DNA of 44,599 bases from a virus. Positions 5,951-10,577 of this stretch are shown in pieces; the first letter of the stretch is position 1, and every line of letters begins with the position of its first letter. The position numbers and the translations under genes are program-made. Location: IMG/VR virus record IMGVR_UViG_3300032722_000043, positions 1 to 44,599 of that record. One strand, given 5' to 3'. The notes under the pieces were generated by a model, which worked only from the letters and a program-made list of their open reading frames with translations, made no database searches and was not told where the DNA came from.

Positions 5951-6131
5951 TTCTTAATATAACTACTTTACCTTCTACCGAATAGATTTTCCAATTACCT
6001 TCCGGTAATGGAAATTTAATAAAATCCCAATTAACGCTATCATTTGTATCTGCTATAAAATAGTTATCTGTTGTTATAGCAGTATTCATAAAGTTTTTTG
6101 GGATTACTATTCTAATAAATTCTTTATCCAT
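5940..6131 (-). CDS. Small hypothetical protein
   Basis: A 63-aa protein overlapping both neighbours (8 nt with the nuclease gene upstream and 11 nt with the gene downstream). The sequence is beta-rich, ending in NWKIYSVEGKVVILRNAK. No motif is recognised. The tight overlap is the main support that it is a real gene. Confidence 0.45.
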   Translation of the reverse strand: MDKEFIRIVIPKNFMNTAITTDNYFIADTNDSVNWDFIKFPLPEGNWKIYSVEGKVVILRNAK

Positions 6132-6708
6132 TATCTAATTGATTTAATCTATCTCTTATTTGAGAAGCAATTTCATATTCTTCATTTTCAAGAGCATTAT
6201 TTAACATCTTCTGTAAATTTTCTTTTGTATTTAAAGACTTCGGATTAAATTCCGCTTTTTGATTAGTATCCATTTGTTCTTCATTAATAGTACCATCATC
6301 ATTCATTTCTATACCAGCAATACCTAATACACTTTCATTTGTATATATAGGGCATGCATGTCCTATAGAAAGGGCTACGGCATCACCAATTGTAGAAGGA
6401 ATTCTAATTTCCTCATCAAGTGAATTTAAGATAACTAAATCAGTATAAAATTTACCTTCTAAAATAGAATATATTTCTACGCATTTTAGTCTAGCACTAA
6501 GTGCTTCAAGAATTGGTTTTATCAAATCTTGAGTTATTTTAACTTTTGATTTAGATTCCATTTTAACTGCAATACTTTGCGCTTCATTTTGATTGATAGT
6601 TATAGGTAATTTTCTTAATCCTTTATATTCATTAAGGACTAATATAAAATAACCATCATTTGTTTGAGTATATGCCAAACTTAATACTTTTAGTTTTATT
6701 TTTTTCAT
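6124..6708 (-). CDS. Bifunctional-nuclease (BFN/DUF151) domain protein
   Basis: A 194-aa protein. Residues 1-115 match the BFN (DUF151) domain: KKIKLKVLSLAYTQTNDGYF with LVLNEYKGLRKLPITINQNE, a downstream DLIKPILEALSARL helix and ATIGDAVALS-like IPSTIGDAVALSIGHACPIY. The C-terminus ENLQKMLNNALENEEYEIAS continuing QIRDRLNQL is a UvrB/UvrC-type coiled-coil motif, the usual partner of BFN in Bacteroidetes proteins. BFN proteins have been reported with RNase/DNase activity. It is the first gene of an operon driven by a clear Bacteroidetes-type promoter, which suggests early transcription by host RNA polymerase. Confidence 0.7.
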   Translation of the reverse strand: MKKIKLKVLSLAYTQTNDGYFILVLNEYKGLRKLPITINQNEAQSIAVKMESKSKVKITQDLIKPILEALSARLKCVEIYSILEGKFYTDLVILNSLDEEIRIPSTIGDAVALSIGHACPIYTNESVLGIAGIEMNDDGTINEEQMDTNQKAEFNPKSLNTKENLQKMLNNALENEEYEIASQIRDRLNQLDNG

Positions 6709-6763: not shown

Positions 6764-7750
6764 TTAAAACCCACTTCCAAATATATCAATAACAACACCT
6801 AATCTTTTCGTAATCTCAGGCATATTTAACGGTTCAATTATTGAATTGATTGGGGATAATAACGCTTTATTAAATTGCTCCCCAAGATCAATTTTTGGAG
6901 CAAATTCAATCGGAAACTGATCTCTTAAATAAGCAAATATTGGCTGTTCCGCATTATCAGTATAATAATACTTAATCTTACTACCGCTTTTTATAAACTC
7001 ATATTTTGATTGTAAATCTTTATGCTTAAATAATAAGAAATTATGATAAGCAGCTGCTTTAACAGCAAAGTGAGCACCTGTTACAAACTCTAATTTTTTC
7101 TTATCGTCTATAACTTTTTCATCATAATTAGTACAAGAAGATTGTAAAGCTATATCATCAATTCTATCAGGAACACATAAATCAAATTCTTTTCTTAAAC
7201 CTTTAACTAATTTAAGTAATTCTTTAATATTAAATGTATCAGGATTTTTAAATAAATACTTAACAATTTCTACAATCTTTTCTCTTGCAAATAAAGGTGT
7301 AGATGATCTAACCAACTCAACTCCTTTTGGATAAATATAATTAAATCTATCATAAGGAATACCATCTTCATATACAATATGTTGTATATATTTCTTCTTT
7401 GCCATACTAATTATAGATTCAGAAATTCTTTCTAATTCAAAATCATGCTTATTTTCAACACCATACTTTTTACCATAATCATCTAAAGCATCAATAAAAT
7501 ATTGAGCAATTCTGTTCTTATCTAAGTCCATGATAAAATCTAATCCACTTGAATACATATGTTGCCATTCACAATGATCCATTGCAGGTTGGAATGAAGC
7601 AAAAAGCGAATTATGAACTAATATATCATTACCAATAAATGTATGTGTATCATCATCAACTTCTACATCATAAACATATTCTTCATCAAATAATCCTATT
7701 TCTTCACAACTTTCAATATCGTCAAATTCATATTTTAATTTTTCACTCAT
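6764..7750 (-). CDS. Split intein C-part fused to the C-terminal part of family B DNA polymerase
   Basis: Residues 1-47 are the C-terminal splicing domain of a split intein (block F YVYDVEVDDDTHTFIGNDIL, ending VHN). The polymerase resumes at Ser48: SLFASFQPAMDHCEW. Joined to the N-terminal piece this rebuilds motif C, YCDTD|SLFASF. Downstream, MAKKKYIQHIVYEDG (about 115-129) is the KKKY region of family B polymerases, and the rest is thumb. The C-terminus VVIDIFGSGF may be the sliding-clamp-binding tail. The polymerase replicates phage DNA with the clamp encoded at 28690-29475. This reading frame starts with its own ATG overlapping the end of the endonuclease gene by 8 nt, so the C-piece is made separately and must be joined by protein trans-splicing. 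Confidence 0.85.
   Translation of the reverse strand: MSEKLKYEFDDIESCEEIGLFDEEYVYDVEVDDDTHTFIGNDILVHNSLFASFQPAMDHCEWQHMYSSGLDFIMDLDKNRIAQYFIDALDDYGKKYGVENKHDFELERISESIISMAKKKYIQHIVYEDGIPYDRFNYIYPKGVELVRSSTPLFAREKIVEIVKYLFKNPDTFNIKELLKLVKGLRKEFDLCVPDRIDDIALQSSCTNYDEKVIDDKKKLEFVTGAHFAVKAAAYHNFLLFKHKDLQSKYEFIKSGSKIKYYYTDNAEQPIFAYLRDQFPIEFAPKIDLGEQFNKALLSPINSIIEPLNMPEITKRLGVVIDIFGSGF
7610..7750 (-). mobile_element. DNA polymerase split intein, C-terminal half
   Basis: 47 residues, from MSEKLKYEFDD to VHN. The ending HN plus Ser at +1 is the standard C-terminal splice junction. Length and start with a fresh Met are like other natural split-intein C-parts. Confidence 0.8.
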
Positions 7751-8846
7751 ATATTTCTTTTATTATTTTATCTATTGTTTTTTCTAAACCAAACTCATTA
7801 AATTCTGATTCCCAAATAGTTATTAGTTTATTTAACTTTGTATCTAAAAAATCTTTTTTAATTTTGTCTTTTTCCCAAATATTTTCTGCTGTTATATTTT
7901 TATCAAAAAAGAAATTATTATAATCACCTTTATATTTTAAAGGATTAGCATGATAATAATCACCATTGAATTCGATGCCTATATTTAGTTCTTTAATATA
8001 AAAATCTAAAAAATAATATTTATTACTACTATTTGAATAAAACCACCTTTCTTTTTCAGCATAAAAATATGTATATTTTTTATTCAATTTTTTTATTAAA
8101 TTATCAAATAATAATTTTGATATAGGTGAATAATAAGTTATAATTCTATTTATAACAAAATTATTATATTTTTTACTACCCTCATCAATTCCATATTTAT
8201 TAATAAAATAATCTAATGTAGTTGAATATCTTTGTTTGTCACAATAATCATTCCATTTTGAAATTCCTACTTCCTCACCATGTTTTTTTATTAAATTATT
8301 AATAGTTACTGCTCTTGATTTATTAAATAAATCATATGTATTTTTATCCCATTCATATTTTTTATTTTTATATTCAAAAGAATTAGAATATGCTTGTTTT
8401 TCTTTATAATTTTCAAATTTTTTTATACCTTCAATCTTACCATATTTATTTACTAGATTTTCTAAAGTAACTGCCTTTTCTTTATGTACTTTTTTCATAA
8501 TATTTTCAGGTATATCAAAAGCATAACAAGTCATACTATTAATAGTATTAAAAATTCTACTTTTATTTTTTGTTTCATATAATGGAATTTCGTTTATTAA
8601 ACAATCTTCACAACAAGTTAAATAATAGTCAATATTATCAACTTTTTTTGATGAAATACATGATTTATTATGAAGAATAATTTCTTTATTTTTTGTTACC
8701 CTAAATGTAGAATCATAATAATATATTACATCATCACAAATTCTACATTTAGGGTAGTTTGGAAAATATTTCTCAAATATTTCTCTATAAAAATTTTTAG
8801 TTTTTGTTTTATTAAATTTTTCAATAAATTCTTTATTTAGTTCCAT
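7743..8846 (-). CDS. EDxHD/Vsr-like homing endonuclease between the polymerase intein halves
   Basis: A 367-aa free-standing protein encoded between the two intein halves. The N-terminal part holds paired cysteines (CRICDD..., CCEDC) and repeats of the form KYGxxxGxxKxxxYxxKQ (about residues 138-235), probably DNA-contact modules. The C-terminal nuclease reads YFLDFYIKELNIGIEFNGDY, then YHANP, WEKDKIKKDFL and LITIWESEF, a Vsr-fold PD-(D/E)XK core with the E-D-x-H-D order. This is the endonuclease family reported with fractured split-intein genes. It has its own promoter-like TTTAATATATA (8869-8880) and overlaps the intein C-part start by 8 nt. Its likely target is uninterrupted polymerase DNA at the motif C codons. 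Confidence 0.78.
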   Translation of the reverse strand: MELNKEFIEKFNKTKTKNFYREIFEKYFPNYPKCRICDDVIYYYDSTFRVTKNKEIILHNKSCISSKKVDNIDYYLTCCEDCLINEIPLYETKNKSRIFNTINSMTCYAFDIPENIMKKVHKEKAVTLENLVNKYGKIEGIKKFENYKEKQAYSNSFEYKNKKYEWDKNTYDLFNKSRAVTINNLIKKHGEEVGISKWNDYCDKQRYSTTLDYFINKYGIDEGSKKYNNFVINRIITYYSPISKLLFDNLIKKLNKKYTYFYAEKERWFYSNSSNKYYFLDFYIKELNIGIEFNGDYYHANPLKYKGDYNNFFFDKNITAENIWEKDKIKKDFLDTKLNKLITIWESEFNEFGLEKTIDKIIKEIYE

Positions 8847-8887: not shown

Positions 8888-9244
8888 TCAATTTTTAACT
8901 ATTAATATTTTATCCGTTTTTAAGATTTCACTAGGTTTTACTTCAATTTTTTTACCATTTCTAAAAACAATCATAGAATGATCATTTGTAACAATTATTT
9001 CTTTACCACTTTTAGTTTTTAACTTCCATTTTGGTTTAGATACTTTATGTCTAATTATTCTAACAACTTTTGAATATTCTAACCCTTTATCATCAATATA
9101 ATTTAGAATTTTTTCATTTGTTAAAACAGATTCATGACCTTTTATAGTTTCACCACCTGTTCCATTTATCAAATTCCGATTATACCAATTTTCTATTGTT
9201 ATTTTTTCACCTTCTATATCAAGAAGTGTTGATGCATGACAAGA
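8888..9244 (-). mobile_element. DNA polymerase split intein, N-terminal half
   Basis: 118 residues beginning SCHASTLLDIEGE. I take Ser as intein residue 1 because that puts Thr at position 6, as in block A (CxxxxTL), and because the exteins then join as YCDTD|SLFASF without an extra residue. Block B is VTNDHSMIVFRNG with its conserved His. The frame stops at ILIVKN, before any endonuclease domain, so this is a split intein and not a contiguous one. Confidence 0.8.
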
Positions 9245-9466
9245 ATCCGTATCACAATAAATACTTACTGGATAAGATTTATCTATTTGTTTTACATTTT
9301 TAAGATTTAATTTTTCATGTAATTCAGTATCTAAATGCCACATATTATACCAATAATCGTCATTGGCTTTTTCCATTAATTGGATTACTTCTCTACCATG
9401 AGCGGTAATTGAGCCAGCTACGTTATTGTTGAATAGCACAAAATAAGCAGTTGCTAATGCCCCGTA
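8888..9466 (-). CDS. DNA polymerase palm segment (after bypass) fused to split intein N-part
   Basis: The open frame downstream of the 42-nt interruption. It begins with the landing TAC codon and reads YGALATAYFVLFNNNVAG, the continuation of family B motif B, through SITAHGREVIQLMEKANDDY and to PVSIYCDTD, motif C with two catalytic aspartates. From the next Ser it is intein (118 residues, stop at 8888). An internal GTG at 9439 could start translation, but that would delete the end of motif B, so continuous translation from 9631 by bypassing is the better explanation. No ATG lies between the upstream stop (9491) and motif C that would give a working polymerase. Confidence 0.75.
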   Translation of the reverse strand, partial: YGALATAYFVLFNNNVAGSITAHGREVIQLMEKANDDYWYNMWHLDTELHEKLNLKNVKQIDKSYPVSIYCDTDSCHASTLLDIEGEKITIENWYNRNLINGTGGETIKGHESVLTNEKILNYIDDKGLEYSKVVRIIRHKVSKPKWKLKTKSGKEIIVTNDHSMIVFRNGKKIEVKPSEILKTDKILIVKN

Positions 9467-9505
9467 AGAACCTCTTTTCCCCCAGTAGATTTACACCCAC
9501 TGGGG
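9464..9505 (-). other. Putative 42-nt translational bypass element inside polymerase motif B
   Basis: On the - strand, the motif B codons GGT GCT TAC (9514-9506) are followed by 42 nt ending in TCT TAC (9469-9464), after which the polymerase resumes in frame (GGG GCA TTA). The gap contains an in-frame TAA (9493-9491). An 8-bp GC-rich hairpin CCCCCAGT / ACTGGGGG starts at the last base of the take-off TAC, and the purine tract AAGAGG lies 4 nt before the landing TAC. Take-off and landing contexts GGTGCTTAC and GGTTCTTAC differ at one base in nine. Matching codons, a hairpin just after take-off, a stop in the gap and an SD-like landing signal are all features of the T4 gene 60 bypass. Skipping it restores KLVLNGAY|GALATAYF. 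Confidence 0.65.
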
Positions 9506-9631
9506 GTAAGCACCGTTAAGAACCAGCTTCAAAGCTAATTGAAGGGCGTTATAATACTCCACTTCTTTTTTTACTTCAAAAGCTTTAGCTCTTAACGAAT
9601 CTAATTTTTTAATTTTTTCGTCTTTAGTCAT
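9491..9631 (-). CDS. DNA polymerase C-terminal fragment, first segment up to motif B
   Basis: A 46-codon frame from ATG 9631 to TAA 9491. Residues MTKDEKIKKLDSLRAKAFEV and EYYNALQLALKLVLNGAY are the fingers helix leading into family B motif B (KxxxNxxYG), with K35 and N39. After Tyr42 only four codons (PQWV) precede the stop. It begins abruptly in the fingers: the exonuclease and N-terminal domains (normally 500 or more residues) are not upstream, where an HNH endonuclease gene lies instead. The polymerase is therefore split, and the N-part must be outside this window. To be useful this segment must be joined to the 8888-9466 frame by bypass. Confidence 0.72.
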   Translation of the reverse strand: MTKDEKIKKLDSLRAKAFEVKKEVEYYNALQLALKLVLNGAYPQWV

Positions 9632-9686: not shown

Positions 9687-10577
9687 ATGATTAAAGAAAA
9701 TACCATATCAGTAAATATAACTAGTGTAAATAGAAATCATTATATAAAATTAGGATATAGTGTTAATATATTTGAAAAATTAGATATAAATGTATATGAC
9801 TTACCATTAAGTTCCCACGTAAAAATAACAGCAATATGTAAAATATGCAGTAGTGAAAATTATATTCAATATGGAAAATATATAAAAAATAAAAATAATC
9901 ATGGTTTTTATTCTTGTAAAAAATGTTCTAGACAAAAAGCCGTGATAACATCTCAAAAAATTTATGGAGTTAATAATTGGATGGAATTAAAAGAAGCAAA
10001 GGAAATAATGGCAAAAAAATTTACAAATAAATATGGAGTAAAAACAAATTTATTATTAGAATCTAATAAAGAATTAAGGAAAAATATAATGGAGGAAAAA
10101 TATGGTACTTCTAATTTTTGGGAACTAAGAAATAATATAAATAATGAATTTGTAAATAGTGGTAGTATAAAATTTATAAACCTAAATATTACTTCCTCTA
10201 AAAATGATATAAAAAACCCTAAATTAAGATACTCAGATGAAGAAATCAAAAAATTTTATGATCAATATTTGATAGAGTTTTCTAATTATAGAAAAGAAGT
10301 AAGAAAATTAACTAAAAGAGTTAAAAATAAATTATATGAAAAATGGGATGGTTATGATTTTTATGATAGAGAATATATAAAAGATTATTTAAATTTAAAT
10401 TATGATAATAAAAAATATCCAACTATAGATCATAAAATATCTATTTATGAAGGGTTCTACAAAAAAATTAAACCAGAGGAGATAAGTTGTATAAATAATT
10501 TGTGTATAACAAAACGTTCCTTAAATTCTTCGAAAAGAAATAAAAATTTCGAAGAATTTAAGGAACGAATTAACTAA
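9687..10577 (+). CDS. HNH homing endonuclease at the polymerase break
   Basis: A 296-aa protein. The N-terminal part has a four-Cys element (CKICSSENY and SCKKC) and KYG-type repeats (KIYGVNNWMELKEAK, NKYGVKTNLL, EKYGTSNFWELRN). The C-terminal nuclease has an HNH pattern: WDGYDFYDREYIKDY, then YPTIDHKISIYEGF, then NNLCITKRSLNSSKRNK. The same C-terminal domain occurs at 33586-34749. It is divergent from the polymerase fragment, with 55 nt between starts, and lies where the N-terminal half of polymerase should be. It may have helped to create that split, as free-standing endonucleases are known beside split polymerase genes in T4-like phages. The end of the gene encodes a perfect 21-bp inverted repeat. 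Confidence 0.72.
   Translation: MIKENTISVNITSVNRNHYIKLGYSVNIFEKLDINVYDLPLSSHVKITAICKICSSENYIQYGKYIKNKNNHGFYSCKKCSRQKAVITSQKIYGVNNWMELKEAKEIMAKKFTNKYGVKTNLLLESNKELRKNIMEEKYGTSNFWELRNNINNEFVNSGSIKFINLNITSSKNDIKNPKLRYSDEEIKKFYDQYLIEFSNYRKEVRKLTKRVKNKLYEKWDGYDFYDREYIKDYLNLNYDNKKYPTIDHKISIYEGFYKKIKPEEISCINNLCITKRSLNSSKRNKNFEEFKERIN
10515..10567. terminator. Perfect 21-bp inverted repeat embedded in the endonuclease 3' end
   Basis: The arms 10515-10535 and 10547-10567 are perfectly complementary over 21 bp, with an 11-nt loop. Both arms are coding (last residues of the HNH protein). The repeat lies just before two convergent genes overlap, so it is probably a bidirectional terminator placed inside the coding sequence. 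It is the longest perfect stem I found in the window. Confidence 0.55.

Follow-up and report, generated by a model that had tools for sequence, protein, structure and literature searches.

We consider the 42 nt that interrupt motif B of a phage family B DNA polymerase (PolB) gene to be a probable mobile programmed-bypass element of the T4 gene 60/mobA kind; no protein, ribosome profile or transcript data are available. The window, that is, the whole stretch of DNA that was analysed, is the 44,599-nt virus record IMGVR_UViG_3300032722_000043, an AT-rich sequence resembling huge-phage genomes. Its closest named relatives are uncultured phage genomes of 462-735 kb, and the Lak phages and Tenacibaculum phage PTm1 are more distant. 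Long-gap programmed bypassing has rested on T4 gene 60 and yeast mitochondria, and its generality has been an open question.

The gene for the C-terminal part of PolB starts at 9631 on the minus strand; after 40 codons, within motif B, 42 nt break into it, and it then resumes in the same frame towards motif C, the site where a split intein begins. The first 40 codons (ORF1, 9512..9631, minus strand, MTKDEK...KLVLNG) are conserved in relatives and end at the take-off codon, and ORF2 (8888..9469, minus strand; PF00136, PF14890) contains the remainder of motif B (SYGALATAYF), motif C (YCDTDS) and the N-half of the split intein. The bypassed gap, landing codon included, occupies 9470..9511 on the minus strand and is missing from 23 insert-free loci. 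It contains a 12-bp hairpin (9479..9506; CCCCCAGUGGGU-GUAA-AUCUACUGGGGG, arms 9506-9495 with 9490-9479 and a GUAA loop), with no other strong GC hairpin in the 44.6-kb window, and an in-frame TAA stop, read directly from the sequence, lies in the hairpin loop at 9491..9493 as the seventh codon of the gap. Upstream of the gap, a second helix of 13 bp is formed between a 5′ arm, TCGTTAAGAGCTA (9586..9598), and a 3′ arm, TGGTTCTTAACGG (9513..9525), that ends in the take-off codon; 0/100 codon shuffles gave a helix as good, and its arms covary across elements. The identical 42-nt insert occurs in two more IMG/VR contigs (L008 and L009) and a diverged version occurs in L010; therefore, it is not an assembly error.

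An initial annotation, made from the sequence alone, had already proposed T4 gene 60-like bypassing at this position. That proposal is supported and remains the best-supported reading, without biochemical demonstration, and the interruption of motif B on the minus strand, its sequence, its 42-nt length, the common frame and the internal TAA all held. The exact codons and the Shine-Dalgarno aid were wrong. TAC had been given as both take-off and landing codon; L010 has AAC at the proposed take-off and retains GGT on both sides. The corrected pair is GGT (Gly40, 9514-9512, assigned from the L010/L294 comparison) to GGT (9472-9470, assigned by comparison of the relatives' gaps), with decoding predicted to resume at TCT (9469-9467). 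The predicted junction NGAYG failed as well, and GGT to GGT yields NGSYG, the sequence of the relatives. The hairpin, described as 8 bp beginning at the take-off codon, has a 12-bp stem that starts 5 nt downstream of GGT, and the AAGAGG tract offered as an SD-like landing aid overlaps the landing codon, and other elements do not conserve it. The upstream helix (9598-9586 with 9525-9513) and an HNH gene 55 nt upstream had been missed.

Scanning IMG/VR with the polymerase fragment recovered about 50 distinct loci of one clade, in which gaps were placed with a frame-aware split-alignment script. The initial annotation had suggested a check for relatives without the insert, and 23 PolB loci proved to be uninterrupted. 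The distinct interrupted loci number five at site A, 12 at site B, two at site C, two at site D (including the window), one at site D′ and eight at site E; two further site B elements lie beyond these 30 loci, and overall there are 31 distinct gap sequences of 36-48 nt, most of which are not multiples of three. The six sites fall within about 10 codons of motif B (ALQLA/L/KLV/LNG/S/Y/GAF, where slashes mark the sites). The joined frame is without a stop in 30/30 interrupted loci, and the motif B core has a dN/dS of 0.089 in loci with gaps and of 0.086 in those lacking them, values that are rough because synonymous changes are near saturation. The coding sequence flanking the gap is under strong purifying selection. 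The interruption and its pattern of conservation are thus shown by sequence, and one criterion for programmed bypassing, the interruption of an ORF whose joined product is needed, is met. Bacterial and archaeal genomes yielded no relative of the PolB fragment, and a pattern scan of these genomes gave six matches, none with a coding interruption.

A check for an intact second polymerase, also suggested in the initial annotation, found none, and each contig carries one split PolB. Where both parts were seen, they are two distant genes, with or without a gap (20 contigs of 68-508 kb, one PolB each). In these contigs (G001-G020, behind L063, L044 and others), the N part bears motif A, the C part bears motifs B and C, and the two lie far apart, for example approximately 114 kb in G017. 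On the minus strand of the window, 9112-6764 contains the PolB motif C split intein, whose halves flank a free-standing ORF, as they do in PTm1. This ORF (7743..8846, minus strand) is a putative endonuclease, PTm1 having a VSR endonuclease at the same place, and it is followed by the intein C-half and the PolB C-terminal part (6764..7750, minus strand, identified by its open reading frame and domain matches). Because the motif B gap and the motif C split intein occur in one short gene region, the region carries two kinds of mobile insert. Elsewhere on the same strand, an ORF that looked out of the ordinary for a phage, at 6124-6708, carries a bifunctional nuclease domain (PF02577) together with a UVR motif (PF02151), and an ORF at 71-958 matches the Mom DNA-modification family (PF25680), so the phage may possibly modify its own DNA.

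Every PolB gap holds a hairpin of 9-16 bp, usually with a CCCCC/GGGGG base and a loop of 3-6 nt, that begins 5-6 nt past the take-off codon and leaves 4-10 nt before the landing codon; the predicted fold extends further in a few gaps. The pattern CCCCCN(10-22)GGGGG was present in 15/16 interrupted contigs searched and in 0/4 uninterrupted ones, the sole exception being the D′ contig, which has a CCCC/GGGG stem instead. Additional CCCCC/GGGGG hairpins in two phage contigs were rejected as elements and are intergenic terminators. The covariation of the hairpin is shown by sequence, since arms fit their own partner (26.9) better than that of another element (17.6; 0/20000 permutations).

Codon matching is likewise shown by sequence. 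The landing codon is synonymous with the take-off codon in 23/23 distinct elements at sites A-D′, five of the six sites, mostly as NNT to NNA or NNT, and the take-off codon ends in T in 21/22 loci, whereas uninterrupted relatives have a T-ending codon for these residues in 38/100 cases (p=4e-7). At site E (L233, L236, L266, L270, L272, L273, L275 and L279), matching is 0/8: the take-off codon is TAT or TAC, and the landing codon is AAC, TAA, GAC, AGC or CAA. Perfect Tyr re-pairing at site E was rejected, as the landing codons differ in all eight elements; in our reading of the codons, most of them keep two of three pairs with tRNA-Tyr, and minimal pairing reportedly can suffice (title of Herr 2004, cited in PMC3014915). 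One site E element, in L275, has a 16-bp hairpin starting directly after TAT, and no 5′ helix was found there. A stop directly 3′ of the take-off codon, absent from the window, where the first stop is the seventh codon of the gap, was sought in the other elements as well; their first stop is mostly at codon 1 or 2, one is at codon 11, and one element has none in that frame. The 3′ spacers of the PolB elements show no conservation of an SD-like sequence 5′ of the landing codon, a sequence with a modest effect in T4.

A helix in the upstream coding sequence, with its 3′ arm ending within 4 nt of the end of the take-off codon, was found in 21/22 loci at sites A-D′, and in the same 21/22 loci it exceeded all 100 codon shuffles; no comparable 5′ helix was found in the uninterrupted PolB relatives. 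Its 5′ arm is fixed in one part of ORF1, and its 3′ arm shifts with the gap site, so that the pairing is kept by different sequences. This second covariation is also shown by sequence, the arms scoring 27.2 with their own partner, 22.9 within a site and 15.0 between sites (0/20000 permutations). At site E, the same helix occurs in several elements at a position further upstream.

An HNH-like homing endonuclease ORF (9687..10577, plus strand; PHROG homing endonuclease, DHK...NLCITKRxxNSxK motif) lies 55 nt upstream of ORF1 in divergent orientation. Homologues occupy the same divergent position, a few tens of nucleotides upstream, in 17/28 interrupted PolB loci and 0/23 uninterrupted ones (p=1.9e-6; the L245 match is weaker and opposite in orientation to the others), and this linkage is shown by sequence. 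The pattern of mobility is shown in the same manner. The site labels are scattered over the PolB tree, requiring 24 changes where shuffled labels require 25.8. From about 100 nt past the gap onwards, L265 (site A) shares 98-100% identity with L266 (site E), yet the two differ in element, ORF1 and upstream DNA, which we infer to be the mark expected of homing with co-conversion. Copies of the window HNH family away from PolB have no such hairpin, apart from terminator-like or unrelated ones; in L232, the sister contig of the window, a second, different DUF7487/HNH family copy occurs elsewhere, and its adjoining hairpin is only terminator-like.

When the pattern derived from the PolB elements was run on IMG/VR, most matches beyond PolB and terminases were intergenic or unrelated and were set aside. 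In the terminase large subunit of a different phage group, Walker A is interrupted in 11 loci (L312/L320, L324, L326, L333, L353, L375, L379, L388, L390, L392 and L395) and uninterrupted in more than 50 relatives. The gaps of 40 or 42 nt lie at YGGAA/GGGKS, or at YGG/AAGGGKS in L390, with codons GCT to GCT/GCA or GGA to GGA; ORF1 has 28 codons in ten loci and lacks an ATG in L390. The take-off codon is GCT in 10/11 of these loci and in 13/55 uninterrupted relatives. A second terminase type, found in six contigs (L402, L406, L410, L429, L442 and L443), has one identical element at GGTSAG/KTFG, with a gap of 37 nt, codons GGG to GGA and an ORF1 of 32 codons from an upstream ATG. At each of the three terminase positions, the landing codon encodes the same amino acid as the take-off codon. 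Directly upstream of the terminase elements are HNH_3 or NUMOD4-HNH genes of a family that differs from the PolB HNH: in the first group, an HNH gene is upstream in 5/10 interrupted loci compared with 1/53 (p=2e-4), and a NUMOD4-HNH gene directly precedes the second type. One uninterrupted terminase, L378, has a 23-aa HNH endonuclease match upstream, possibly a decayed remnant after element loss. Not all terminase elements have a strong 5′ helix; in some it is weak or missing. The search for an element in a cultured phage gave none: the terminases of Flavobacterium phage 11b, Cellulophaga phi10:1 and the Fpv phages are uninterrupted. We regard the terminase elements as an independent replication of the PolB anatomy in two other phage groups.

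According to the mechanism that we propose, ribosomes would translate the 40 codons of ORF1 and halt with Gly40 (GGU) in the P site because the strong hairpin begins 5 nt downstream. The ribosome would then leave the mRNA and slide over the 42 nt as the long 5′ helix closes behind it, and peptidyl-tRNA-Gly would re-pair with GGU at 9472-9470, with decoding resuming at UCU to give ...KLVLNGSYGALATAYF.... Re-pairing at a synonymous codon after a slide of approximately 40 nt would account for the codon rules, and we infer that no stop is required at the codon next to take-off; mRNA structure in the A site is known from T4 as well (PMC11194080). The jump and how efficient it is, what each helix does, and the joined protein are all inferred; for T4, a published proposal is that the 5′ stem-loop pushes the ribosome forward (PMC5009743, PMC11194080). 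Each element interrupts its gene within roughly the first 28-42 codons (46 in T4), a position that may reflect a nascent chain still in the exit tunnel or a need for proximity to the upstream endonuclease. The nascent peptide is essential in T4 gene 60 bypass, and any dependence on it here would rest on analogy alone. For all three settings, the closest cultured relatives are phages of Bacteroidota, which suggests, and does not show, a possible host factor. The adjacent HNH protein would act as the homing endonuclease, carrying into uninterrupted alleles a cassette made up of its own gene, ORF1 with the 5′ helix, and the hairpin gap. This cassette would target conserved motifs, and the interrupted target should protect its carrier, as proposed for T4 mobA/gene 60; the endonuclease target is inferred, with no enzyme assay.

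The main rival is RNA-level excision, in which the hairpin is cut from the mRNA and the ends are ligated, either as a mini-intron processed by a nuclease and an RNA ligase or by an unknown ribozyme. Exact removal would restore the frame whatever the site, strong hairpins are obvious targets for nucleases, and the site E boundaries require no codon pairing, so excision is least excluded there. However, splicing does not predict the synonymous edge codons (23/23 at PolB sites A-D′ and all terminase elements), the NNT take-off bias, edges in codon phase everywhere or stops just after take-off. Moreover, no element matched any intron or ribozyme in Rfam, and with gaps of 36-48 nt the criterion of a self-splicing-intron core is not met. 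We therefore consider this explanation unlikely. Two separate proteins, with ORF1 stopping and the remainder produced from an internal start as a further split of the polymerase, are much less plausible still. These phages already encode PolB in two distant genes, and the window has an in-frame GTG at 9439. However, this reading would cut motif B in two, the first ATG/GTG/TTG is at least 29 codons downstream in most of the 30 loci, and purifying selection (dN/dS about 0.10) acts on the conserved residues that lie after the resume point and before the usual first candidate start. A pseudogene, or a sequencing or assembly error, is suggested by the stop codon that breaks a conserved motif; it too is hard to sustain, given the same insert in several contigs, about 30 variants, flanks under strong selection and no second PolB found. 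Stop-codon readthrough, adding 14 residues within motif B, fits only in that the window's own gap is in frame and is practically ruled out, because the relatives' gaps vary in site and length and most are not multiples of three, which would leave the remainder out of frame, so that readthrough cannot be a general answer; the initial annotation had already held it to be probably fatal to the enzyme.

Bypassing remains our preferred reading; against it stand the site E mismatch, the late stop in the window, the lack of a conserved SD aid, and the weak or missing 5′ helix in some terminases. A bolder reading is that widespread cassettes of endonuclease and hairpin bypass move among conserved motifs of unrelated genes in Bacteroidota-type phages, and that site E elements either land at codons not matching the peptidyl-tRNA, with landing set by RNA structure, or are removed as RNA; taken jointly, we rate these claims as somewhat less likely than not. 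The kind of bypassing is known from T4; what appears to be new is the element family, with its variations and its extension to two other gene families: no description was found in the literature searched, from which most subscription papers and all preprints were outside the scope. The approximately 31 PolB elements and the three terminase settings, for which close relatives without an interruption serve as natural controls, separate the conserved features (hairpin position, 5′ helix, NNT take-off, NNA/NNT landing and a short ORF1) from those that are not conserved (SD aid, adjacent stop and perfect codon match). They point to the T4 mobA/gene 60 cassette as one case of a widespread strategy of mobile elements, which may invade the most conserved motifs without an intron or intein. 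If site E is removed as RNA, it would represent a new kind of mini-intron.

Among known systems, PTm1 (AP019524) has the same split PolB C-fragment, the motif C split intein and the free-standing endonuclease between its halves, but its motif B lacks a bypass gap. T4 gene 60 with mobA (PMC5009743, PMC3014915, PMC11194080) shares a gap of tens of nucleotides near the gene start, matched take-off and landing codons, a take-off hairpin, a 5′ stem-loop, an HNH gene upstream and an otherwise inactivating insert. As with PolB, the interrupted gene is itself one part of a split protein, and ORF1 has 46 codons in T4 and about 33-42 in PolB. In the T4 control (NC_000866), a GGA codon is followed by TAG and an 8-bp UUCG hairpin. 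Unlike T4, the elements described here occupy PolB motif B and TerL Walker A, their gaps are 36-48 nt rather than 50, and their hairpins start 5-6 nt after the take-off codon, whereas the T4 hairpin includes it. They also lack a conserved SD-like landing aid, their landing codons are often synonymous rather than identical (NNT to NNA), and they comprise many insertions at several sites, one class having non-matching landing codons. The putative terminase bypass of Streptomyces phage Hau3 (PMC5009743) likewise concerns a terminase gene, but its gap is much shorter and tied to a UUA codon, and no hairpin/HNH cassette is described in PMC5009743. The Magnusiomyces mitochondrial byp elements (PMC5009743) are alike in being many short frame-interrupting inserts that are thought to be mobile, some with imperfect take-off/landing matches. 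However, byps occur in many genes per genome, seem independent of mRNA context and have no endonuclease beside each, whereas the phage elements occur once per contig examined and have strong conserved helices.
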